Shown here piece by piece: positions 5,904 to 64,000 of a stretch of DNA of 64,000 bases. The position numbers and the translations under genes were made by a program. Under the pieces are notes generated by a model. It worked only from the letters and a program-made list of their open reading frames with translations. It did no database searches and was not told the origin of the DNA. Each line of letters starts with the position of its first letter. Position 1 is the stretch's first letter. This DNA is from Chlorella sorokiniana (taxonomy: Eukaryota > Chlorophyta > Trebouxiophyceae > Chlorellales > Chlorellaceae). The stretch spans positions 2,604,001 to 2,668,000 of the forward strand of contig CP084615.1 in assembly GCA_025917655.1 (NCBI GenBank), in the 5' to 3' direction.

Positions 5904-8900
5904 ATGGCCGCCCCGGCCAAGAGCCCGCTGGCAGAGCTCCTGTGCGGCATCTGGTGCGCCACGCCTGCCTGCTCGCCAGCTGTGGGCCCCTGTCCTGCCC
6001 CGCGCCTCGGCTGCCACCAGTGTCGTTTGCCGAACCAGCCACGGTTGTGCCCATTCCGGCTGCCCTGCAGCCAGGAGGATCTGCTGGAGAGCGGCGCTGA
6101 CCTGGGAGAGCTGGATGCCTGCCGCCACCGCTTCTGCTTCCCCTGCATCTCCAAGTGGGCCGCCATCGAGAACTCGTGCCCCTTCTGCAAGCAGCGCTTT
6201 GCGCGGCTGCGACGCAAGCGCCTCGCGCCGCGCGACGTGCTGCTGGCGGGGGCGGGCTGGACCCTGCCAGCGAGCTGCCCGGCGTGTATGTGGACACGCA
6301 GCAAGTGGAGGAGAGGAACCAGGTGCGGCCCCAACAGCTTGACTTTGCAGACGGAGGCTGTTTTGCTGGCGCCGGAGATTTCTGGGGGGTGTCGGGCTGC
6401 CTTGCCAGCGGCCGTGCCCACGCTCACCGGCCTGCACCGCAGCCACGCGTGGGCCTTCAAGGCCATTCTGCAATGACAGCCGCGAAAGCGGGCGGCACGT
6501 GCCGCCGCTCACCGTGCTGTGCCTGCTGCGCCTGCCGCGCCTGCTTGCGCCTCACGCAGCGCGCGGTGCTGGAGGACCCCACCTTCCAGCAGTGGATCGA
6601 GTCGCTCACCTGCACGGCCTGCGGCGGCGGAGAGGACGAGGACCGGCTGCTCCTCTGCGATGGTGGGGTGCCTGCATCACCTGCTTGTGCCCGCTGCATC
6701 ACCTGCTTGTGGGTGCTGCGTCACCTGCTTGTGGGTGCTGGTCACAGACAGCAGCGACGGTGGGTGCCTCCCCTGTTGTGCGTGCCGGTCGCAGCGGCCA
6801 GTTGACGGCATGCCCGGTGCGGCTGCCAGCAAAAACTGCTGCGCAAACACCCGCTGTGCTTCCGTCGCTGTCCTTCCTGTGCCGCAGAGTGCGACGGCGC
6901 CTTCCACACGTACTGCGTTGGGGTGCGGGGCATTCCGGAGGGCGAGTGGTACTGCCCCACCTGCTCCCAGCGGCGTGCTGTGCGCGCTGGCCGACGCCAG
7001 CGGGCGGCTGCCGAGCAGCAGCAGCGGCGCGGCGGACCGCGGCGGCGGGCAGCCACTGCTGTCGTGGAACTTTCCTCCTCGCTTGATGAGGGCAGCGGGG
7101 GGAGGGCCAGGCAGCAGCGCGGCGCGCAGCGCCCGCCGCGGCGGCAACGCTGGGCGCCCCGTTCTGGCGCCGGCCGGGGTGCCAACGCTGGCGATGAGCT
7201 GTCGGATTTCATCGTTCCGGACGAGTCGGAAGACGACTGGCTGGCATCAGAGCCCAGGTGCGGCCCGTCCCTGCCGCTTGCTGCCCCTGATTCTGCTTTT
7301 GACCCCGGGTGTGGAGCTACAAAACAACGGCTCGTTGCAAGGGCGTGCTTGTGGGCTTGGGGCTGCATGCACACAGCGCACCCGCCAGACCGGCGGTGCG
7401 GCCGCTCCCCTGCAGGCCCTTGCCGCCGCGCCGCCGGGACCAGCGCGGGCGCCAGCGTGTGGTGCCCTCCGGCTCTGAGGAGTCCACCCATGAGCGGTTT
7501 GGAGACACAGGCACGCGATGCGGCGGCGCGATGCGCTGCACTGCCCTGCAGCGGGTCTTGCTTTGAGTGGCTCCTTCCTCTGGTGGCTGCGCCGGCTTGC
7601 TTCGCTGCATGGACGTACCCCTGACTGAGGGCAGCTTTTATCTGTGCCTGCTGCGCTGCAGAGCCTGAGGCTGACTTCACAGACAGTGGCGGCAGCAGCA
7701 GCGGCGGGGGGGGGGTGAGGATGAAGCTGAGGTCCAGGACCAGCGCCCGCTCCTCTCCCGCCTGCAGCGCCGCGCCAGGGGCAGCCGCCGCAGCGGGCGA
7801 CAACGCGGCCGTGTGGGCGGCGCTGCTCAGGGGGCGGCGCGGCAGCGGGCCGCTGCTGCAGGAGGCGAAGAGGCGCCCACACAGGCGCACAGGTGCGCTG
7901 TGCGCGCTGGGACCGTGCGTTGGAAGCTTTCGCTTTTCCTGGCTGCTGGTGGGGGCCAGGCCTGGGGCCGTGACTGCCCGCCTTCTCCTCACGGCCGAGC
8001 ACGCAGCTGGCCGTTGATGCAACAAGCCTCCGTGCTCCCACTGCAGGAACGTCTCCGCGCTGGCGAGACACTGGGATGACCTGCGGATGGGCAGCACAAC
8101 CTTTGCCGCCGTGAATCGCTCGGCGCAGGGGGAGGCCCAGCCGCGGCGCCGCCGCCTGGTGCGGGCAGGCGAGCTGGGGGGCTGGCGCCGGCGGCAGCGC
8201 TGCGGCTGCGGCTGGGCGGGGCGGCGCCAACGGCAGCGGGGCCGACGTGGTCGACCTTCTCTCCAGCCAGAGCCCGGCAGCTGCTGCACCTCGGCGGCCG
8301 AGGAGCGGCAGGCGTGGCGGGCGATGGACGCGGCGCTGCGCCAGAGCGGTGATGCGGGGCGGGCGCAGCGGCAGCCGCGCAGCAGGCAGGCTCCCCGTCT
8401 GAGCGCTGGCGGCGGCACGGACGACGAGTTGGATCTGCCGCTGGCAGGTGAGCGCTCGTTCCGCCCACCCAACTGTACCTTGTGGTGCACCAGTGCTGAG
8501 AGAAATCTATATCTTCGCTTCAGCACATTCCTGGGCTGTGTCCTGCTGCCTCGGAGCAACTGAGTGCTAGGTGGCCACGCCTGCCTGCCCCATGCATATA
8601 CTAACTGCCATGTTTCTGTATCTCCCATACATGTACCGCCTGGTGCACCTCTTTCGCCGCCCTGCAGTGCGCCTCACGCGGGAGATCGCGGCGGCCCGAG
8701 AGCGCGGCGCGCAGCTGCGTCTCTCGTCAGACCCGCCCCTCGCCCGGCGGCGCCTCTGCGCCCGCCTCCTGTCCCCCAGCTCTGGCCAGCGCACGGTGGG
8801 CGACCTCCGGCGCATGACCGCCGCCGCGATGGGCACCCCGGCAGCGCCAGGCCGCTCAGGCGGCTCAGCGGCGGCGCCGGCAGCGCTGGGCGTGGCCAGG

Positions 8901-12309: not shown

Positions 12310-15300
12310 TCATATGAAGCCCCCGCTGTCTGCCTTCCCCTGCAGTTCTGGGGCGCCAGGGGCCGCACCGCACTCGCACGCCTCTGCCAGCGGCTGCAGC
12401 TGGAAGTGGGAGCTGGCAGCACCCAGGAAAGCGCTGGCGCGTGCGCTGTGCTTGGCGCTTAGCCGCCCGCTGCTCATGGCTGCGTGCAGCTCCAGCGAAT
12501 CCTGACGCAACATGCCCTGTCCAAGATCCGCAGACATTTCTGCAGCACAGCCGGACAAGAAGGGACGAATCTGCCTCATGTACAGCCGCAGGCAGCGGCG
12601 CAGCGGGGCAGGAGGTGAAGGCAGGCTTGTGGGTAAAGCCGCTGCCGTGGCTCTAGAGCCACTCTCAGATCTCATGCAAAGATCTCTCAGCAGTAGCGGT
12701 GGCTCACTGCTCGACCGCTGCGCAGGGAGGTCAAGGCAGCCCCCTGCAGGCAGCGCAATCGCAAGAAAGACTCACTGCGGATGACTCCAGCTGAGAACGA
12801 GAAGGCGCCGCGTGTGTCGGGGGCCAGCGCCAGGGCCTCCGGATCAATCGTGGTGTGCACAACCTGCGGCGGTCGGAGCTCCTCAGCATCGCTGAGCATG
12901 GCACGGGTGCGCCAGCGCTGGCCGTTGCAGCAAGATGCGGGGGCCGCTTGCAGGCTACGGCACCACTCCGCCACCACTGGCGTTGTGCTGCCCACCAAAC
13001 TCCAGGAATGCCACCGCACCTGCTTGTAGCGGAAGCGCTTGGCAACGAAAATGTACACAATGAAGGTGAGGAACTGCGGGTGGGTGAAAAGAGATTGGAA
13101 GGGGGGGGGGGGACGCCTCAGCGGGTCACTTAGTCGCTCCGTTGCAGGCCTGGCACTCCCTGCGATGCTGCTCTGCAGGCTCTTGTTCCCTCTCTCACCA
13201 TGAGCACGCTCATCATGAAGAAGAAGTAGTCCATGTGCCCATCTGCAACGCAAGAGCGAGCGGCATGCAAGCACGTCTAGTGGACAGAGTCGGCCTGGGG
13301 GTACACCCATGAACGGGCGCCCGCAGGCATGCAGGCGCGTGAGCGTGAGCGCCGCATGCCCACCCACAAGCACAGACAGCCACAGGGCGCAGGCGCGGGC
13401 GCACCGTTGACGTTCGAGGCCACCCACGTGTCATCGCTGATGGCCTGCACGATGATGACCAGCAGGCTGGCCAGGTAGCTGCCTGCAGGGTGGGCGGGCA
13501 GGCAGCAGGCAGCGAGAGTCGCTCCCGGACCCTCGCTTCGTGGCGGCTTGGGGGCCGGCGCCGCCCTCCCCAGGCAGCAGAACGTCGCCGGAGGGTGCAG
13601 CGGCAGGAACGAGCTGCCGGGCATCCCTCCGGTCCTGATACCCTGCGCGCCGCGGCACAGCTGGCGACGCACCCAGCGCGGTGGCAATCAGCTGCAGGGC
13701 TGAGCACGTGGAGCGCATGGCGTCGGGAGCCTGGGAGTAGAAGAGCTCCAGGGAGCCCACCATGGCAAAAACCTCTGAGCAGCCCTGCCGGGTGAGGCAG
13801 AGCGAGAGAGGTAAGGAGAGCGATAGGCGAATAGCCGACGTCAGAGCGACACGATGAGGGGAGGAGGAGGGGGTGGAAATGGCGGTGGTGGCGGAAGAAG
13901 GGGGAGGCGCTAGCGGGAGAAGGAGCAGCGGGGGCCGGCACGCTAGGGCGCTGGGGGCAAGGGCCCTGTGCCCTCTCCCATGCAAAAACGCAGCCCCAAG
14001 CAGGCAAGCTTTCACCAGGGCCTGGGAGCTGTACGGCGGTGCGCCTCAAGGCGTACCGCGGCAGCTGTAAGCCGCCGCCGCCGTGAGCTCACCACGAGGA
14101 AGTACTGAGGGATTTGCCACCAGACGCTCATGGGCACGGTGGGCGCCCCCTCCGCAGTGGGGTCGTCATCTTGCAGGCCGTGCCTGTCCACAACTCCCAG
14201 CCGGATCACCTCCACCACTGCAGCATCAGAAGAGCGCAACAAGATTGGGCGGCAGAGAGGGAGGGGAGGGCCCAGGCGGCGGTCGATCACGGTGGTGGGT
14301 GCTCAACGGACTCGAGCCAAAGCACGACGGCCAGGGCAGGCGCTAGCTGGTGATTGAAGGCCAGTTGTACAGCCTGTCTGCGCCGCTTTGCCCGCAGGCC
14401 AGCCCCTCGCACGGGCAAGCCGCTGCGGACGGGCTGGGCAGCGGCTGCCCTGCTGCGCCTGCTGTGCTTACCCCCAGCGGCGATCATGGCCAGGGTAGCG
14501 ATGATGTAGCCGATGCCGATCCGGAAGGTGAGGGAGATGGGGCGGCCGCGGCGGGCAAAGAAGGGGGCAATGACGAAATCGTACAGCTGCAGCGGAGGGA
14601 GCAGGAACCGAAGAGTGAGGCACAGCACTCTGGGCTCTGTTTCATAAAAGACGCCGATATCTGGCCTTTGACCCCTGCTGCAGCGGGTAGGGGGCACTGA
14701 GAGGATGGCGGCTTAGAGCAGCGGCTGCGGCTCACCGGGATCCAGATCATGACAGAGATGGGGTCCAGCACTGCGGGGGAGGGGGAGAGCAAAAACAGCA
14801 GAGCAGGTGAAGAAGGGGCGTAACCAGCGCGGCGGGGGCGGCTGTCCCTTGCCCCAGCGCCTCCTGCGCTGAAAGCAAGCAAGATGGTTTTTATGTGCAT
14901 TGGGGGAGGGCAAGAGCGGCGGGCAGGGCCGCACCCGACACGGTGGCCGGGGCCACATCGAGGGAGCCCAGGCTGGTGTTCATGCCCTCCCCCTGTAGGA
15001 TGAACAGCGTGGTCATCTGCGCCCGGAGAGGGGGGGGGTGTTTAATGAGGGCGTGGATCGCTTCTGAGGGCAGCCAGCGCTCAACCCACTATCAAGCACA
15101 GGAGCCGCCACGCGTGCGTAGGTGCTGCTGCCTACGTAGGCAGGTATACCTGCAGCGCTGGCAGCAGGCACCCGGATGCCCACCAGATGGCGCGCTTCCT
15201 GCTTCTCTCTCCCCCGCCCCCGCCCCCACCCCACTTTTCCCTCCCGCCGCCCACCCACTTGCGCATACTTCCTTCAATCCCCTCTCCCGTTCCCTGCCGC

Positions 15301-29700: not shown

Positions 29701-32700
29701 GAAACAGCAGCTAGCTGTCAGCAGCGCTGTGATGGCACGCGCACGGCGCACCGCTGACAGCTGCCTGCCGTTCTGTGCCTGGACAGTGCGGCGAGGCTGC
29801 GCTTGCCCTCTTTGCGCTCGCTCTTTGCGCTGCAATCAGCTGTCCCCGCATGGCCCCGCACGGGCCGCCCTACCGTGCTGCCGCGCCGCCACCGTCGCGT
29901 TGCGTTGCACGCTCCCCTCGCTCCGCAGGTGGCAGCAGCCTCTGGCCTGGCCTCAAGCCTGCTGGAGCTCTGCATCTCCCATCACGCCGCCTGCGCCGCC
30001 GACGTCATGCGCCAAGTGAGCGCCAGCTGGCCGCCGCCTCGCCCGCAGCCTTGCCCGCTCACAGAGCGCGGCGTTTGCGGCTGATTCCTGGGCAGAGCGG
30101 CGTGCCAGGCAACTGCGGCTGGCAGGCTCTCTGGGCCGCGCTTTGGGATCCCCCTTCAATGCTGCCGCAGATGCCGATCGATGTGGCAAGGGCAACTTTG
30201 CTGCACTGGAGGCGGCTCGCTCCTGCCATTCATGACAGGCACCCCCTGCCCCGTGTTCTGCCTGCGGCTGCAGGGGCTGGTGCCCCCACCGCCATGCTGG
30301 TCCGCAACTACCGCTCCCACCGCCGCCTGCTGGACCTGCCCTCCAAACTCTTCTATGGCGGCAGCCTGCAGGCCGCCGCCGATTCGCGCTCAGGTGCGAT
30401 TGCAGCCCTGCTGAAGACCCTGGCAACCCAGCCCTGGAACACCCACCCGTGCCCTTGCCCCCCTCCCCACACGAGCTTGTGCCTGTCGCCTCCCTGTGCC
30501 TGCTCGTGCCTGCCCGTCACCCGTGCCTGTCGCCTCTGACGCTTACCTCCTCCTCGCATCGCGGCCCCCGCCCCGCCCCTGACCCCGCAGTGCTGCCGCC
30601 GCGCTGGCGCGAACTGGTTGCGGATGGCGGCGAATGGCAGGACAGTGATGGAGAGGAGTCTGCCGCGGCTGCAGCATCGGCGGAGAGCGGAGGCGAGGGT
30701 GGCTCTCAAGAAGAAGATCCGCAAGAGGAGCAAGAAGAGGAGGAGGAGGAGCAGGAGGAGGGCGGCTTTGACCAGGGCAGCACGGCCAGCCTTCTCTTTT
30801 ACGGCGTGCGCGGGCAGCAGATGCGGGAGGGCGACGCTCCCAGCTTCTTCAACCCTCTTGAGGTGGGAAGCCCTGCTGCGTGGCCAGCCCCTGTGTTGCT
30901 AAGCCCTCCGCTGCTGCTTGAGCAGCCTACCGGCTTGCGGCTGCTGCCGCGCGGTCGCATGCGGCCCATCAGCCGCGCTCCCAGCTCTGCCAAGCCCGTC
31001 GCTTTATCTGCTTGGTTCTGCACACCCTCCCATCCGTTTCCACCGCCCCATGCCAGCAGGCCTCCACAGTAGTGGAGCTGGTGCGGGGCCTGCTTGCCAG
31101 CGGAGCCGGGGTGCGCCCGGACGACTGCGGCATCATGGCGACCTACCGCAAGCAGGTGCGCAGGTGGCGCCTGTGCCCGCAGCACTCCCCCAGCTCCTCC
31201 GTTCCGTTGCAGCACTGGGAGGGAACCTCGGGCCCGCTGTATGCCGCCACCCGGGCCGCCACGCGGCGCGGCGCTGCCGCCGGCATCGTTCCGCATGCAT
31301 GTGTTCCGCAATGCTTTCTGTGGCCCGAGCTGCGCTGGCTGTACGCGGCCAGGGGGCATTTGGCCCTGCACTGTACTGCAGGTTTGTGATGCAGAGTGTA
31401 CCGCGATCACTGAAGTATACCTCTGTACCGCAGGTCCAGAAGATCCGGCTGCTGCTCCGTGAGCGGGGCCTGGGCGCCATCCGGGTGCGCCGCCCCTGGA
31501 GGGCTGCCGCACGCTCGCCCTGCAGCAGCGCCGCTGCCGCTACCGCCGCTGCCGCTGCCAGTCCGTTGTGAGGTGTCGGCAGTGGCTGCGGCTGCAAGCA
31601 GGACACACCTGCTGGGCTCCAGGGACCAACCGGGAGCCCATTTGGATGTCATATATTTTTTATTGAGTAACCCAAGTTTCTTGACTGGACACGAATTCGA
31701 AACTTCGAGTTGCAGGTGGGCACTGTGGATGACTACCAGGGCCAGGAGGAGCGCATCGTGTTCATCTCAACCACCCTCAGCCGCCCCGAGTCTCTACCGC
31801 CGCAGCAGCTGCAGCAGCAGGGCGGCGTCGGCGACGACACAGCTGACCGCAACCTGGGCTTCTGGCGCAACCCCAAGCGCTTCAATGTGCGTTTGCTGGC
31901 GGGAGTCCCTTTTATCTTTCCCACTGCGGGGTGTCAGTTGTTGCTGATCATGGGCTGCTGGCTGCAACATTGCCCACATCCTGGCATCCCCCTCTGTCCC
32001 CCCCTCCCCCTATCCGCAGGTGGCTATCACGCGGGCCAAGGCGCTGCTGGTGGTGGTGGGCCACCCAGCGGTGCTGCTGGAGGATGCCAGCTGGAGGGAG
32101 CTGCTGCGGTGTGTGGGTGGTTGGGAGGGAGGGGGGTTGCATGCATGCTTTGCGGCGCACTCAGGGGGCGAGTGAGTGTGCGAGCGGCAAGGGGGCTGCC
32201 GGGGGCCGGCACGATGCATGTGAAGCGCGCTGTCGCCCTTGTACTGCACTGTACCACAGCCACTGCTTCTCCAACGGGGCGTACCGCGGCGCTGGCGCCG
32301 ACTCGCTGCGCCAGCGGTTCCGCGTCGACGCCGGCGCCGCCGCGCCGCCGCTGCCGGAGCTGCCAGCCGGCGAAGAAGGTAGGGCGGCGGTGGGGAGGGG
32401 GTCCTTCAGCAGACGCCAGCTTGGCAGGATGCCCCGCTTGCAGCTAGAGCGAGCTCAAGCCAACATGCTGCTGCCTACAGACACAGCTAAGAACCTCTGC
32501 CCGCCAACGCAACTCGTCCCCACCCGGGCTTTCCATCCCTTGTCATCGCAGGTGCCTTGCCGGAGGCCGCCGATGCCGAGCTGCAGCGCGCCATCGGGCA
32601 GCTGGCTGAGCTGGCGCTGCTGGGGGCGGGGCGCGCCGCCGAGCTCTTTCCCGACAGCTTGGACGAGCTGTATGCTGCCGCTGCCGACGAGGCGCCCTTC

Positions 32701-33417: not shown

Positions 33418-36358
33418 TCACACCCGCAGCATCTGCGTCTTGTTGCCGAAGCAGACAGCCACCCAGTCGGGCTGCGCGGAGCTCCACTGCAGCTGGTTGA
33501 TCTCCGTGCCCGCGTTGTAGGCAAGGATGGGGTCCAGGACGTTGCTCGACGCGGCGCTGGTACCGCCTGCGGTACCGCCGCCCTGGCCCAGCACGCCCAG
33601 GTCCCAAATCAGCGCCTGGCTGTCGTCGCCCGCGGAGCAGAGGTGCGACGCAGAATGCGGCGCCCAGCAGATGGCATTGATGCTTGCCTGCAAGGACGGA
33701 GGGAGCGGGCAGAGGGAGGGCCCTGGGTGCCTCACCTGGCAGCAGGCCAAGAAGCAGCAAGCGGCAGGCAGGCTGGAAGGGGCGGGTCAAGGGCACGCAG
33801 AGGTGTGTTGCGCAGCCAGAAAGCACGGCGGCTTCCCTGGCAGCGACGCCCCAACCCAGGCAGGCACCGGCCCGCACGCATGCTGACACAAACCGCCCCT
33901 GCATCGTGAGCGGCGGCGGCATGCTCGCCGCGCCTCGTTGCCCACCTGGTGGCGGCGCAGCTCAGCCACAGGCAGCGTGGGGTATCGGATGTCCAGCACA
34001 GACACCTTGGAGGAGTCCATGGCCAGCACTGCATCACAAGCAGAAGCCAGGATGTGCGTGAGAGCACGGCAGGAGGGCTGGAAAGTGGGGCGCAGCGGCG
34101 AGGCGCAGGCAGGGCTGCCGAGGCAGCTCTGAGCTCTGAGCGCGCTGGCTGCTCGTCGCCGCGGCAAGCAGCCCGCACACGCCGGCTCCTGGCAGCAGTA
34201 GCCGCATGCAGCAGTGTGCAGGGCCCTGCAGCCAGCAGCAGCAGCAGCCCACTGCTCCCCGCTGCTTGCTGCCAGGCATGCGCTGCCGGTGCTCAGGATG
34301 CTCGGCCAAGCCCAGCATCAGCTTCCTGCAGCGCAGTAGTATGAGCGGTGCGGCCACCCACCCGCGATGTACCGAGGGTCCTGCTTGTTCCAGGTCAGGC
34401 GCAGCAGAGGGGTGTCGGGCGTGGGCGACTCGTAAATGATGGTGCTGTGCTCCTTGTCCCTGATGGAAGAAAGGGGGAGAAACATTAACGATGGAAATGA
34501 ATCGCAGCATGGGCTTGCACATGGGATCAGGCGGAGAGAGGCTGCGAGCAGGCGCAGGAGCATGCACCAGCAACCTTGCTGGGGCCCCGTGCCGAGACCG
34601 CCCTGGATGGTGTGCATGCAATTTTGCATGCAATGCAAAGGCTTTTGACCATCCGCCTGCCCAAACCGAACCTGAGGTCAAACACGCGCACAGAGCCGTC
34701 CGCCGACACAGAGGCGAAGATGCCGATGCCGCCCCAAGCAATGTCGTACACCTGTGGTGGCAGATGGGACAGGGTTGGATGGGTTGGCTGGGTCAGTGTG
34801 GGTGGGGCCGTAGGTGTGGGCAGGGGGAGGGGGTTCAGTCGTCGCTTTGGGCTGTGGCGCTGCATCGGTCCCTGATCAACCCGCCACAACGCCCCCACTC
34901 CCACCCATGCCTCCGCAAACCCATAATATCATTGGCAGAATACCAGAAGGCTGTTGGGAGACTTCATTGTGTTGTGTTTTGTTCCTTGATATGAAAAAAA
35001 AAAAAAGCAAGCCCGCCCACCTCCTTGTCGTGCGCGATGAGCTGCGTGTCCACCACCCCGCGCTCCACATCCCACACGGTGCAGGTGGTGTCGATTGAGG
35101 CGGTGCCCACGCGCCGCGGGTCCAGCTCGTTCCAGTCAAAGGAGGTGAGCGGCGCCGCAAACTCGCCGCCCTTGTTCTGCAGGCGAGCAAACAGGGCGGG
35201 GGGGGCAAGGTTGCAGGAGCATGGAGGGCCGGGGGCGTGGGCAAGGTTGCGGGAACAAAGCGGGCGTGGCGGGGCAGGGCGGGAACATGGTGTTGTGGGA
35301 AAGGCGACGGCAAGTGGAGGTGGTGTGAGGTGCACTGCTGAAAGCGTGAGGGATGGCGTGTGTGTGCAAATCTTGACCCCTGTCCTGCCAGCATCGCACG
35401 TTGTTGAGCAGTTTCTCGAGGCGCACGCCCTGATGGCCGGGGCCGTCGTCCGTCACGCGCCACACCCGCAGGAAGTCGCCGCTGGTGGCCAGCAGGTCAG
35501 GGCGCGTGCCGCTCTGCAGGCACAGGGTCGATTCAGCGGCATGCAAGCGCAGGGCAGGGTTGTTGAGGGGTTGGCGGCGCTGCCAGCTGCCAGGCAAGAA
35601 AATCGCATGCTGCCAGCTCTCCAGGCAGCGGCGCCCCTACAGCTGCACAGCTGCCGGCACTGCTGTGTCGCTGTTGCGGTACTGCTGCGGTACCTTGTCC
35701 GGGATGAAGGCCACCTTGGTGGGCGGGTAGGGGTGCTGGAAGGTGAGCGCCGGTGTGCTGCGAATCACGCCCGCCGCCTCATCCACTGCAGGCAAGCAAG
35801 CGGCGAAAACGCCACGTGAACTCGAGCCAGCCTGTGCAGCTGCAGAGAACCTGCCGGGCCCAAAGAGGGCAGGCGAAAACCTCGCTAGACGAGCATGGGG
35901 CAGCTCGGGTAGGCGGCGGCGGCGGCGGCGGCGTTTGCAACAGGGGAGAGGCGGAAGCAGCTGTCGACAGGACTCACGGTGCAACAGCTCCACTTTGTTG
36001 GCATAGTCGTCGATGAAAGAGCCGACAGCAAGGCGGTAGGGCTTGTCCGGCCGGGACTGCGCATGACGGAAGGGGCGGGCAGCAGCGCTTGACTGGAAGC
36101 TGCCCTCGTGCACACATCAGCCCGCTGCTCTCACGGCACACTGCATGATTGCTGCAAGATGCTGCTTTGTGCTGGTTCAAGCACAGGGTGCTCGGCAGCC
36201 TTCGCCAGGCAAAGGGTGGCAGTGTGGTTGGGGGCAGCTGGAGCAGCGCGACTGTTCGCCGCACGACGGCTCACCGAGAAGCCGCAGGCATACACGCTGC
36301 TGGTGCTGGTGTATGTGTAGATCTCTGCCCGGCCTTCACCCTGCTGCTGATCCTGCAT
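33418..36358 (-). CDS. LWD1: LWD1 / TTG1 / DCAF7-type WD40 protein
   Basis: This family (plant LIGHT-REGULATED WD and TTG1, animal DCAF7/WDR68) scaffolds transcription complexes and kinases. The match is close along the whole protein. Exon 1 has [19 protein letters not shown], then [200 protein letters not shown] and [11 protein letters not shown], ending [12 protein letters not shown]-stop. The WD repeats are split by short introns. The ATG at 36356-36358 fits the family N-terminus. In plants LWD1 feeds the circadian clock. The role in algae is inferred. Confidence 0.96.
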
Positions 36359-58000: not shown

Positions 58001-61000
58001 TCATGCCGGGCTGGATTTGAAGGGCGTGACGCCGTGCCCGAGCGGACCCGCCCGCAGCCCGGTCGCCTTCTCAAACGCTGCCGCCACGCCAGCCACAAAC
58101 TCGTCGCTCCAAGCCGGGCCCAGCAGCGTGACTCCAAACGGCAGCACGGGAGCGGGGTTGCCCGTGGCAGCTAGGTGCGACGCGCGGCGCGCCTGCTCTG
58201 CATCCTCGCCGGGCGGGGGCCCCCGGGCTGCAGCAGGCCGCTGTACACGCTCACACCGCACATGTCCTGCAGGTTTACAAAGTTGGTCCACCTGCAATGT
58301 TTTCAAGGGAGGGCAGGAGGCAGGACGTGCGTCAAACTGTTGGCATCCTTTTCAGCGCGTTTCCGGAATGGCAGCAAGTTTGCAGCTGGTGCAGCTGATA
58401 GTCAGGCTGAAGCAGCTGCGCGACAGCTCACAGCAGAGCACCCAGCTGGGAGCCTGTGCACGCAGCTCTCCCAGCCTGTGCACACAGCTGGCTCGCCGCC
58501 CGCACCTGCCCAGGTTTGCATTCTTGGCGAAAGTGACGGCGGCATACTCGGGCTCGTCCTCTTCCGCCTGCACACACACACTCACACGCAGCACGCAGCT
58601 GCAGTTCAGAGCCAGGCCCAGGGGGCGTCCTGAACAAACCCCACTGCCAAGCTGCACTGCAGGCAGGCGGTTAGCGGCGGGCGCCGCCAGCGCGGCCTTG
58701 TCCCCCATCCACAAGGCAGCCGACCGGCGATCCCTGAACCCCTCTCTGCGCAGCCGCAGCAGCTGCTCCCTCCCCTCATTCTCGCGACCTCCCACCCACC
58801 TGGATCTCCTGCAACGTGTAGTTGTAAGCGGAGGTGGGCACTATGAGGAGGTCTACTTTCGCCAGCTCAGCGCGACACTGCAGGCAGCACAGGCAGGTCG
58901 GCGCTCGGCGAGAGAAGGGAGCACTGCGTGCCGACACACAGCGCAAGGCCTCCGCTGCGCTTGCTGGCTGGGACCGAGCCAGGGTGTGCGGCAGCGTGTG
59001 TGGACGTCGCGGCAGCGGCCGCACCTTGCCCCGCAGCACTGACAGGCCTTGCAGCCCCTCAAACACGTCGGCGGAGGAGAAGCCCTCGGTCTTGGAGATG
59101 ATGCAGCGGATGATCTGCGGCAGGTGGGGAGTGTGTGACCTGTGAGAGAAGCGGCAGGTGCAGGCGGCTGTCCTGGCGCAGCGAGGATGTGGGAGGGACG
59201 GAGCACGCACAGCTGTGCTGCCACGCTGCTCCTGCTGCAGTCAGCTCAGCGCCAGAACGAGAGAGGGCAGGTCACACGCCCAGCTGCGAGCCTGCCGACA
59301 AACGTATCCCAGACAGCAGCCCCAAACGGCGGGGGGCTGCGCGCAGCCAGCAGCAGCGGCCCCTGCCAGCCGGCGCCTCACCTTCAGCAAGCGGTCGTCA
59401 TCGTGGAGGGAGGCCAGCTGGGGAGGCGGCGGCGGAGCGGTGCTGCGTCCCTCCAGGAACCTCCGGATGCCTGGGTATCACAGAGGGTGTAAGAGCATGT
59501 GTTATGTTGTCGTTTCAGCATGGGGGGTAATGCGGGATCAGAGCAGGCGTAAGTGACACTGGCACGGCTAAAATGACGGGGCGAGGCAGGAGAGCACATC
59601 AGGATGAAGTGAATGGAATAAAGAGCCTGGGCAGGCACGTCGTGGGAGCCTGCGCAGTGCAGTGGCCCCTTGCGTGATGTGGCAGCCGAGTCGTACTGCC
59701 AGACAGCTCACCCGCGTACCGCTCCGCGACAAAGGCGGCGCCGTAGAGGAGCACCGCGGTCTCCGCAAACGGCGCAAAGTCAAAGTCTGGCACGAGCGTG
59801 CCGCCAAGAGCCTGCAGCCGCGCCACCGCCTGCGCCCAGGCGTCAGCCATAGCTGCATGGAGAGGGGGGCCGCAAGGAGGGACACCTTGAAGCCGGCTTT
59901 CCTGCCCGCAAATGAGGACAGCGCAGCAGCACCACGAGCGGGAGGAGGAGCAGCGGGGGCGAGCCAGAGAACGGCGGCCATGGCTGGGCGCAGCAGGCAC
60001 CGCAGCGCACTAAGCGCCGCTCTGTGGACGCCGCCGCACCTTGCCGCACCGGCTCCCCGCCGGGCCCCAGGAACGAATCGTCGAGGAAGGCGGGCCCTGG
60101 TACCGCAAAACGGAAGGGGCCGCCCGGGATGTACTGCTTTGCCAGGTTAACGGGGTTGGGCAGGCGGTACGTGGGGTCTGCACACAGCGGTTGAGCGCAC
60201 GCAGGGAGGCAGGGGAGCGGTCAGGCAAATAGCGAACCGTGCACCTCGGTCTAAAAACTTCAACCAAAAAACTAGGGATTAATATTCATTCCGGCAAGGC
60301 CAAGGCGCCGGAAGCCAGGGACGGGCAGCGCCCCTGCACCCCTGCAAGCACGGGCCAGCTGCTGCGCGCCCTTCAAGCCACCCCCTGCCCCAAAGCACAC
60401 CCTCACCGAATCCTCCCACACCGCTGGAGCACAGCACCAAACCGAGCCCTGCTGCAGCGCACCCGCAACGTCGCCGTTCTCCATCAGCCGTGCCACCTCA
60501 GCGCCGTCCTCCACGCTGAGCGAAAACACGGAAACGCAGTCCAGGAGGTAACAAGCGGGCACCACGCCTGTGGTGCTGAAGCGCCCACCGAGGGCTTGAT
60601 GCCCACAATGCCGTTGTTGCCAGCGGGGACGCGGCCTGCATGGGGTTGTGCAAGCGGCCCGGGCCACCTCATGGCCAGGGCTGGGCGGGCCTGCCTGCAT
60701 CCACACACTCCGATCAGCAGGAAGCAGCAGCTGGCCAGCAAGGCAGGGCCAGATGCTGCATGCGTGGGGGTTTCAGGATGCAGCGGCCGCCCGCACCTGA
60801 ACCCGCGGTGTCGGTTCCCAGTGCAAAGGTGCAGAGGCCGGCAGCCACCGCCACGGCGGAGCCACAGGAGCTTCCGCCGGGTGAGAAGCGGTCATCAAAG
60901 ACGTTTGCTGCAAAGGGCGCGGCAGGGCAGCGGCACAGTCGCGAGCGCGGGATCGCTTTTGCTTTGCAAGTTTAGCGCTATGTTCCAGGTCTGTGCCCGG

Positions 61001-61821
61001 CGAGGCGGCCCGCGCCGCGCAACCCGACATGGCCCAGCCCGGCGAGTCGGGTGTCCGCGCCGCCACAGCCTGCCCCAGAGGCTGCTGCCACTAAGCCTCA
61101 CCGGGGATGCCGTAGGGCGTGCGGGTGCCCACCAGGCCGCAGGCAAACTGGTCCAGGTTGGTCTTGCCCAAGAACACGCCGCCTGCCATGGACACACGGC
61201 AAAGCAAGCAGACAGTTTGTCGGAAGCTGCAGCCAGCTGCAGCAGAGGCAAGCACGCTGCAGGCTGGGAGCAAGTCCCTGTTTTGCTTCAGGCAAGCAGC
61301 TGCCCTCTCTCAGCCTTGAGCCAGGAACAGACAGCGGAGGCTCGGAGACGGCAGCAGCGGCGCGCGCCTGCGTCAAACAGCGGCTGCACTGCTCGGGCGT
61401 GCGCCGCCGGCGTGTACTGGAAGGCTGGGCAGGCCGCAGTGGTGGGCTGCCCTGCAACGTCGATGTTGTCCTTCACGGCAAAGGGGATGCCCCACAGGGG
61501 CCCCCGCTGCTCCGGGGGCAGGCTCTCCAGGAACCTTTGGGAGGGCGTGGCGAGTGAGGGATGCGTGGAAACGGCGCACACAGTTCAGGGCAGCAGATCC
61601 CAGCAGGCCACGCAGTGGCCGAATGCTCTGCGGGCAGCAGGTTGCTGGCGTCACCTGCAGCGCTCCAGCACCTCTTCGTCTGCGGGCCGAGAGATGAAGA
61701 CGCCCGTGGCGGCGGCGGCAGCTGGCAGCAGCTCCCGGCACACCGCAGTGGGCGTCAGCGTGCCAGCGGCATAGGCCGCCCGCAGTACGGGGAGCGTCAA
61801 ATCAGCTGTGGTCAATGGCAT
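58001..61821 (-). CDS. DUR2: Allophanate hydrolase, amidase domain only
   Basis: This enzyme acts after urea carboxylase in the ATP-dependent urea route of green algae and yeasts, splitting allophanate. The start [20 protein letters not shown] leads to [16 protein letters not shown], then [20 protein letters not shown] with [10 protein letters not shown] (catalytic Lys), [40 protein letters not shown] (cis-Ser), and [20 protein letters not shown] (nucleophile Ser and oxyanion loop). Next are [20 protein letters not shown], the allophanate-type segment [20 protein letters not shown] with [55 protein letters not shown] and [20 protein letters not shown]. The protein stops after TPFKSSPA at 58001. 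The roughly 150-residue C-terminal domain found in bacterial AtzF and fungal DUR1,2 is absent. It lies in the neighbouring divergent gene. Confidence 0.95.
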
Positions 61822-62241
61822 GGCGGCTGAGTTGCCGACGGCGCGCCGCTGGGCGGCAAACAAGAGCTGAAGCCTTGAGCGGCGGCGGCTGGTGGCGGGT
61901 GGAAGGGTAAGCCAGGTCCAGGTGCTCAGACGTGCTGCTGATGCGTGAGGAGAGTCAATCCGCACTCTGCAAGTATTAGGGAGCCCGACAAGCCGCGCAT
62001 TCACCCAGACAGCAGCGAGGGTTCACCAAGCAGCGCCGCAACCCTTCTCGATGCGGTCCGCTCACCTGAAAGTGACAATGTGATTGGGCGCGAGAATGCA
62101 GCGCTCAGGCCCTGTCCCCGAGCGAGTGTCCCTCGACCATCGCGGGGACCTGCTGGCGCCTGCTGGGCGTGGTCCCTTTTAGCGTGCAGGGCTCATGCAT
62201 GTTTGCCGATGCGCTGATCCATGATCAACCGACCTTGCACG
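61822..62241. promoter_or_regulatory. Bidirectional promoter of the split allophanate hydrolase genes
   Basis: Only 420 bp separate the two divergent start codons (61821 minus, 62242 plus). A shared regulatory region for the two enzyme halves is likely. It contains CATGCATG near 62194-62201 and a ctgatccatgatcaac patch just before the plus start. No nitrogen-responsive factor site can be named from sequence alone. Confidence 0.6.
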
Positions 62242-63156
62242 ATGGCAGCAGCAAGAGCCAGCGCCCTACAACTTGCGGTCTGCGGCCTTCACCTTCGGGG
62301 CAAGCCCTCAATTGGCAGTTGACCGATTTGCGCAGCAGATTTGTGCGGGAATGCAAGTCCGCTGCAGAGTACAAGTGAGGACATGCTTGAACTGGCAGCA
62401 GCGGCGAGGTGGCGGCAGGCGGCAGGCAGGGGCAGCTGGGCGCATGTCTCTGCGTGATGATGCCCTGGTTGTAAATGAGGGAAAGAGCACCATCGCATGC
62501 TGAGACCTAGACCACCCAATCCCCTCCAGGCTGTATGCCTTCACCGACGCCGCCGGCAAGACCAAGCCGGGCATGGTGGCAGTGACCGACAGCAGCGGTG
62601 CGGCGGTGCATCTTGAAGTCTGGGAGGTGCCCATAGAAAACTTCGGGCACTTCATGCTGCAGGTGATCGTGTCAAATGCCTCTAGGTGGTGAGGGGATGG
62701 CAATCATGGGCTGTATGCTGCACGGGTTTTCAGCTGCATGCTCACCGCACGCCACGCGTCCGCTTCTCCTGGCAGGTGCCGCCGCCGCTCGGCATCGGCA
62801 CGGTCAAGCTGGAGGACGGCAGCAGCGTGAAGGGCTTCATCTGTGAAGGCTGGGTAGCGGGTGAGTGAAATGCGCGATTCGCAGGAATGCATGCTGTACA
62901 ACGCAGTGAGGTGGGATGGGGGAGCAAGGAAGGCTGGGCGGCAATAAGAGGCACGTCGCCCTTGCTACTGCCGGCCTTGCAGAGTTGCCTGTTTGGCTGC
63001 TGCGGCCGCTAGCGCTCGCTGTAAGCGCCTTGCGATCGCACTTCCTCAAGTGCAGAGGCCTGCAAAGCTGGCGCGGCGAACGTGGAGGACATCACGCACC
63101 TCGGCAGCTGGCTGGCCTACCTCCAGCGGCAGGCGGTACAAGGGGCCGGGACTTAG
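62242..63156 (+). CDS. Stand-alone allophanate hydrolase C-terminal domain
   Basis: In bacterial AtzF and the yeast enzyme this domain completes the reaction by decarboxylating the intermediate left by the amidase domain. Exons are 62242-62374, 62530-62662, 62776-62860 and 63056-63156, all GT-AG. The protein begins [20 protein letters not shown] with KP, then [88 protein letters not shown], and [16 protein letters not shown] before the stop. This covers the family pattern from the N-terminal beta strand through LN-Q-L, E-W-P, PLGIG and KGF-CE to the dIT-GsW end. Summed exon length is 452 nt, one short of a whole number of codons. A single missing C at 62305-62307 restores KPLNWQ and gives 150 residues, the normal domain size. 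Confidence 0.9.
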
Positions 63157-64000
63157 CCTTGCCGGTGGCCATTTGCGCATACTTTGCCGTTGTTACTTTT
63201 CAATTTTCAAATCCTTCCAATGTACCGTGTCATCAGTTTTGCGACACATGCGCCTATGGTAGGTGCCAGCCGTGCCGGGGCCGGCTGAGGTTTGCTGGTG
63301 GAGAAGGCGCAGAAGCTGCCCTGTAGGACCATATAGTGGGGCGGCTCAATGGCAGTGCATGCCTCTGCCTGACTTTCTAGCTGCAGCTTGCACCTCTCTC
63401 CAGCAAGTGGCAGCCGGTTGGTGCCAGGTGGTGGAGGTGCTCCAGCTGGCGATGCGCAGCGTGCCAGCTTGGACAAGGGAAGGCACACTCAGCATCAGGC
63501 CAAATGCCTGTCATCCAGCATGCCGGGTCTCAGGTTGCTGCACAAGTCAGCTTCCTTGTGGTCTGTCCCTCTCTCAACTGATGCGTGGGTATTACAACAT
63601 GAGAAAAAAATGGTATGCTCAGGTACAGAAGAAGGGCGGAGGGGTAGGGGAGTGAACAACAACAGCCACAGGATGCGACCCAACACATAAGGCAATAGGT
63701 GTGGCGGCGCAGCCACCTGCGAAGGCTGGCAAGGGGGAAGGGGGGGCATGGCAAGGGGGTGATGGGCAGAGGCAGGGGTCCATTACTACAGAGGGGTCCG
63801 AGGGTAATTAATTGCAGGTACGGCATTACTTGAACCCACTTGCTGCCAGCATTGCAAGCGCTCTCTGTTGAGCAGCAGCGGTGCTGCTGGCCGGCAAGGG
63901 AGCGAGGCAGCAGAGAAACCAGAGCGGCAGCATGTCAGCGGGTGGGGAGGGAGCTAAATGATGTAGGCAGATAATTGTGGCTGGGGGCGCTCAAGCAGCC
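63157..64000. other. Right end without recognised gene
   Basis: These 844 bp follow the C-terminal-domain gene and probably hold its 3' UTR and intergenic sequence. Open frames on both strands lack domains and gene-like codon patterns. Confidence 0.4.

Follow-up and report, generated by a model that had tools for sequence, protein, structure and literature searches.

Two divergent genes of Chlorella sorokiniana encode the two complementary domains of allophanate hydrolase

The locus and its gene models

We studied a stretch of 64,000 nt from the green alga Chlorella sorokiniana (assembly GCA_025917655.1, contig CP084615.1, positions 2,604,001 to 2,668,000 of the forward strand), in the following called the window. 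It encodes the two complementary domains of allophanate hydrolase (AH) in two divergent genes, i.e., the amidase domain on the minus strand and the C-terminal domain (AH_C) on the plus strand. The GC content of the window is about 60-73% (in 2-kb steps), and both AH genes are intron-rich. Gene models were rebuilt from stop-to-stop frames and splice sites. The respective features are as follows (window positions).

58001..61821, minus strand: amidase (N-domain) gene, predicted subunit of AH; 12 exons, splice-consistent model
61821-61655, 61534-61368, 61182-61102, 60907-60797, 60635-60463, 60177-60040, 59852-59712, 59470-59382, 59114-59025, 58877-58800, 58567-58506, 58291-58001, minus strand: exons of the amidase gene
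60797..60907, minus strand: amidase exon 4, which encodes the motif GGSSCGS with the cis-Ser and the motif TDTAGS with the nucleophile Ser (yeast Ser177 in the alignment)
60575..60588, minus strand: frame break 1, amidase exon 5, one base short
58204..58230, minus strand: frame break 2 (a single base missing) in amidase exon 12, where an insert without counterpart in solved AH sequences starts
61822..62241, no strand: shared upstream region between the start codons, 420 bp, 63.8% GC; candidate two-way promoter
62242..63156, plus strand: AH_C (C-domain) gene, predicted subunit of AH; 4 exons (62242-62374, 62530-62662, 62776-62860, 63056-63156)
62290..62309, plus strand: frame break in the first AH_C exon, a single base missing, within the conserved start of the domain

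The amidase gene runs from an ATG at 61821 to a stop that ends at 58001. Its introns measure 120-285 nt and are all GT-AG except intron 2 (61367-61183, minus), which is GC-AG. The AH_C gene has its ATG at 62242 and a stop ending at 63156; a second in-frame ATG is located 21 nt and an in-frame stop 24 nt upstream of 62242. A preliminary description of this DNA had given the coordinates and the head-to-head spacing of 420 bp, which the rebuilt models reproduce exactly. It had also stated that the amidase ends after its own domain, and indeed the protein has its own stop, a short tail past the domain and no AH_C match. Its statement that the other gene starts with its own ATG holds in part: the ATG at 62242 is placed at the domain start, but as sequenced the larger part of the AH_C domain is read in another frame because of the break near 62290-62309.

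Next to the gene ends, we compared both products with domain and enzyme models. The amidase product matches PF01425 (E=5.3e-69, residues 64-495) and no C-terminal family of Pfam. The AH_C product matches PF21986 (E=9.9e-44, 148.7 bits) with residues 10-141 of its 150, covering profile positions 2-123 of 123. Models of the whole enzyme are tiled by the two proteins. That is, the amidase covers positions 2-418 and the AH_C protein positions 434-563 of TIGR02713 (563 positions), and the respective ranges for NF006043 (600 positions) are 5-453 and 467-598. Each half is thus complete for its own domain, as had been described. For both models, the amidase scores below the curated cut-off (TIGR02713: E 8e-130, 434 bits vs. 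511; NF006043: 456 bits vs. 487) because the other half of the enzyme sits on the other gene. The nearest non-AH model is indoleacetamide hydrolase with 166 bits, such that the protein is closer to AH than to other amidases. Against the AtzE model it reaches 138 bits (cut-off 461) and hence does not qualify as AtzE-type. Among solved structures, the Granulibacter AH (4gyr) is the best match of the amidase (1.7e-84; also 4cp8 and 4iss) and is matched by AH_C with 3e-30, along with 5i8i (8e-26) and 4iss (3e-25). The K. lactis AH / urea amidolyase (4iss, 5i8i) ranks close behind 4gyr for both halves.

The catalytic set of the amidase is present in the model, namely Lys77, Ser151 and Ser175, where Ser175 aligns with yeast Ser177. 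We take Ser151 to be the cis-Ser and Ser175 to be the nucleophile. Within AH_C, yeast His492, Gly559 and Gly572 correspond to His17, Gly84 and Gly97 of the alga, i.e., all three are conserved. His492 is presumably the key residue of the yeast C domain. For the two glycines, the K. lactis G559E/G572E double mutant is monomeric and severely inhibited (PMC5770610; here and below, papers with PMC identifiers are cited for the accessible part of their text). The locus therefore holds an amidase-signature domain with Lys, cis-Ser and Ser that is closer to AH than to other amidases, together with an AH_C domain. Both domains in one polypeptide are not what we find, since they are encoded by separate genes on opposite strands. 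We regard the one-polypeptide form as usual but not as defining for AH, because four bacterial genomes are split as well (see below).

Breaks in the reading frames

The spliced amidase sequence has 1588 nt (1 mod 3) with two frame breaks, and the AH_C coding sequence has 452 nt (2 mod 3) with one. Three single-base breaks within about 2.0 kb of coding sequence are what one would expect if both genes were decaying pseudogenes, or leftovers that are redundant with an intact AH elsewhere. Furthermore, loss of the route is known from at least one green alga, namely Auxenochlorella, which is without DUR1, DUR2 and DUR3 (PMC12633428). Nevertheless, splice junctions, catalytic residues and domain lengths are intact, and neither gene model contains stops other than those created by the frame breaks, such that we consider decay or redundancy quite improbable. 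Assembly errors seem the likelier cause of the three breaks, because splice junctions and catalytic motifs are intact and each break is one base short.

Extra introns were tried as a cause of the frame switches and rejected: the homology is continuous in amidase exon 5 and AH_C exon 1, which leaves no room for an intron, and no fitting splice pair was found by eye in amidase exon 12. A codon-score scan of the window (score from 368 codons) did not show frame breaks to be frequent elsewhere, but it also missed the three known ones.

If the frame breaks suggest indel errors of the assembly, the gene order itself might be an artefact. That is, the true gene could be a fused amidase-AH_C gene whose amidase segment was inverted in the assembly, and the observed layout is indeed one inversion away from such a gene. 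In that case, the sequence would have been joined falsely at two points, both of which yield proper gene ends by chance. However, the amidase has its own stop past its domain, and the AH_C domain begins at an ATG of its own gene, 24 nt downstream of an in-frame stop. Given that the same split also exists in bacteria, we hold a misassembly to be very improbable.

Fused and split enzymes in bacteria

Genomes were scanned with an alignment headed by the AH_C of the alga, and 296 bacterial relatives were confirmed; we retained the best 80. At 77/80 of these best loci, a single open frame contains both AH_C and the nucleophile motif of the amidase, and the other 3 run off the contig end. A fused AH is thus the bacterial norm but not universal. 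The view that the two halves form one polypeptide in bacteria, as put forward in the preliminary description, is accurate for these 77 of the best 80 loci and fails for the four genomes with split genes.

These four were found among matches in short frames. For Pseudomonadota, AH_C is matched in 76/398 genomes (84 matches in total). Nine matches are within frames of less than 590 aa, and 8 of them were examined, excluding a 45-aa fragment in G160. Two are split pairs (G110, G014), one is fused with a short front (G251:C1) and one is without AH-model match (G234). The remaining four are diverged AH_C-like proteins, three of them stand-alone (137-146 aa) and one forming the front of a 362-aa frame. 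No AH amidase is present in the surrounding 9-12.6 kb of these four, and each of their genomes has a further AH_C match, which lies in a longer frame.

Within the family of G014, we observe an AH_C match in 60/149 genomes (61 matches), and all 9 matches in frames of less than 590 aa were examined. G014 and G506 have adjacent halves, and the halves of G421 are 13.3 kb apart and divergent. In G417, the C half lies at the end of a contig, and the search for an amidase elsewhere gave no more than a weak, partial match. The others are fused enzymes cut by the contig end (G464, G431), a fused enzyme with a frame break (G462), a diverged domain in a 348-aa frame (G404) and a fragment (G524). In the family of G110, only G110 itself was matched among 74 genomes. 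The phylum of G002 gave matches in 2/199 genomes, one fused and one diverged stand-alone. In viral contigs, neither an individual AH_C protein nor the A1 alignment found relatives.

The split pairs are located as follows.

G110, L089 5868-6371 (plus strand) and 6431-7948 (minus strand): convergent
G014, L093 4783-6689, minus strand: co-directional, overlapping
G506, L098 5805-7864, minus strand: co-directional, overlapping
G421, L099 5199-5645 (minus strand) and L109 1324-2784 (plus strand): divergent, 13.3 kb apart

A TIGR02713 search was run on five genomes including these four. In all four, the amidase half spans model positions 2 to 411-418 and the C half positions 428-433 to 562-563; a full-length AH was not found in any of them by this search. 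The one stop counted for G110 is the gene's own stop at the match end. In G110, the amidase start coincides with the end of a full urea carboxylase gene (TIGR02712, 1862 bits), and AH_C faces the amidase convergently at a distance of about 60 nt. In G014 and G506, the start of AH_C and the stop of the amidase overlap by 1 nt and 4 nt, respectively, and such start/stop overlaps are a common sign of coupled translation. For G421, the frame of the C half is printed with 868 aa, but stops within it separate the 149-aa AH_C from an AtzE-family protein.

Compared with the alga, the bacterial pairs show the same amidase half ending after its domain and the same separate AH_C. They differ in their layout, which is convergent, co-directional with overlap or, for G421, divergent over 13.3 kb, and in being without introns. 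Adjacent head-to-head halves occur in none of the four split bacterial genomes.

Two side observations concern relatives of the C domain. In G421, the stand-alone AH_C adjoins an AtzE-family amidohydrolase (L099 5199-7802, minus strand; 695 bits), with the AH amidase half 13.3 kb off. Diverged AH_C-like proteins stand alone in L090 (6272-6709), L091 (1962-2372), L092 (6065-6478) and L105 (5670-6128), and such a domain heads the 362-aa frame of L094 (5676-6761). A 137-aa relative with solved structure (5c5z) is labelled glutamyl-tRNA amidotransferase, which is probably a misleading name.

Function and origin of the pair

We consider it probable, at roughly 0.6, that the two genes form a two-gene, two-subunit AH, i.e., the enzyme that acts second in the urea carboxylase/allophanate hydrolase route, and that it arose by the splitting of an ancestral fused gene. 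The preliminary description had likewise suggested a two-subunit enzyme. Domain tiling, conserved residues and the bacterial splits make this the likeliest reading, but the complex may not be obligate. The minus-strand product would be the Ser-cisSer-Lys amidase subunit, which takes ammonia off allophanate, and the plus-strand product would be the C-domain subunit with the conserved His and the dimer-interface glycines. Both subunits most probably associate into a heteromer resembling the single-chain enzyme. Here, the C subunit would organise the oligomer and may speed the decarboxylation of the amidase product. Co-expression of both genes from the 420-bp region, i.e., the matched expression put forward in the preliminary description, is plausible. 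A decarboxylating role of the second subunit, also suggested there, would rest on Fan 2013, which PMC5770610 cites for sequential reactions catalysed by the N and C domains.

Alternatively, the genes may encode two separate proteins that form no complex. That is, the amidase would be sufficient, its product would decay by itself, and AH_C would be an optional helper or have drifted to another role. On biuret, AtzF lacking the C domain equals the full-length enzyme in activity (PMC3944691), and the deaminated product yields ammonia and CO2 non-enzymatically (PMC6219798). Moreover, the diverged AH_C-like proteins of L090, L091, L092, L105 and L094, with the solved relative 5c5z, are of interest here, since none of the five loci has an AH amidase in the 9-12.6 kb around the domain. 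The algal AH_C, however, is canonical in score, keeps His17, Gly84 and Gly97 and is located 420 bp from the amidase. In addition, the split amidase of the four bacterial genomes co-occurs with an AH_C that matches the whole C part of the AH model. We thus judge two independent proteins to be unlikely. The activity of the amidase-only AtzF also implies that a split at the inter-domain joint is tolerated. Trypsin cuts AtzF near the same joint, with the amidase piece being a dimer and the full enzyme a hexamer (PMC3944691).

A number of observations weigh against the two-subunit enzyme or its proposed origin. With an amidase that may not need its partner and a product that decays without enzyme, a strict need for the C subunit appears questionable. 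As assembled, neither gene has an uninterrupted reading frame. For the alga, the analysis covers the 64-kb window, and a fused AH copy may lie beyond it. A urea carboxylase had no tblastn match in the window at E≤1 (confirmed bacterial query); a bacterial AH, run as a control with these settings, gave matches to the algal AH locus in 12 pieces. The urea carboxylase gene could lie beyond position 64000. In the tree of the amidase half (N tree), the alga forms a long branch (1.63) and falls, with weak support (82), into one group with the splits of G014 and G506. In the C-half tree, no starred set (up to half the rows) contains the alga. Because of the long branch, the group with support 82 and the missing starred set, neither the placement of the alga nor the independence of its split is secure.

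The N tree comprises 40 rows, i.e., 35 fused enzymes that remained of 73 when the set was thinned, together with 3 bacterial splits, yeast and the alga. On this tree the split state requires 3 changes, and on the C-half tree 2. In both half-trees, the five rows nearest to the alga include the alphaproteobacterial fused enzymes L003, L004 and L005, as expected if both halves derive from one fused ancestor. Fission of AH has probably recurred, with the algal split as an independent instance. One ancestral fused gene would have broken at the inter-domain linker to give the pair, and for a plus-strand gene with the amidase followed by the C domain, a single inversion of the amidase segment would produce exactly the present layout. 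A recruitment of AH_C from a diverged stand-alone paralogue was considered and is disfavoured: the protein scores as canonical AH_C, and the half-trees place the alga near the same fused enzymes. The most far-reaching version, i.e., a eukaryotic two-subunit AH that arose by inversion of half a fused gene, is balanced by a 420-bp two-way promoter and is conserved across a group of green algae, is doubtful in our view.

With regard to known systems, the single-chain AH (AtzF, Granulibacter AH, K. lactis AH; TIGR02713) has the same domains, catalytic triad, C-domain His and dimer glycines, whereas in the alga they are spread over two polypeptides, each with its own gene, and the genes are divergent. 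Both AH domains also occur in yeast urea amidolyase DUR1,2 (5i8i). There, AH is fused to urea carboxylase, a fusion not found at the algal locus, where AH itself is split. AtzE-AtzG and GatA-GatC are amidases with a small partner subunit and as such resemble the algal pair. To our knowledge, their small subunit is unrelated to AH_C, and the algal amidase scores higher as AH than as AtzE (456 vs. 138 bits).

In green algae, amidase and urea carboxylase have been reported as separate genes that are near but not adjacent in 3/4 species (Strope 2011, PMC3073912). For this DUR2, or stand-alone amidase, the accessible part of that paper does not mention the AH C-terminal domain or its gene location. 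Allophanate hydrolase is handled as a single gene in other work on algae (PMC6913025, PMC5445130), and none of the accessible texts states which gene carries the C domain in algae. Among the matches listed in openly licensed literature, we found no description of a split AH, and there is none in the accessible parts of PMC3073912, PMC5770610, PMC5445130, PMC6219798, PMC12633428, PMC6913025, PMC8147269, PMC3944691, PMC6737895, PMC7826186 and PMC7391781. The split gene arrangement is unusual, not unique, and is a variant of a known enzyme rather than a new kind.

The arrangement provides a natural experiment in which the two chemical steps of AH are separated. Yeast AH is severely inhibited by mutations at the C-domain interface, while the amidase of AtzF alone is fully active on biuret. 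This apparent difference becomes testable where both parts are independently expressed. Furthermore, caution is advised for annotation, since an alga may be called AH-complete although the second part is a separate and probably unnamed gene.

Some minor results concern the window as a whole. When 145 bacterial open frames were compared with it at 1e-6, only the AH genes were matched. The green-algal polyadenylation word TGTAA is absent 3' of the amidase (to about 1.2 kb) and of AH_C (844 bp), which is uninformative, with 31 occurrences in the window over both strands. Pfam was applied to ten open frames across the window and identified no urea gene; 7 frames are without match and 3 have matches, one of them above the cut-off. 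The latter three are located at 31671-32444 (plus strand), 14290-14712 (minus strand) and 34967-35452 (minus strand), with matches to an AAA_12 domain (3e-7) and, below the cut-off, to a POT-family transporter and WD40 proteins.

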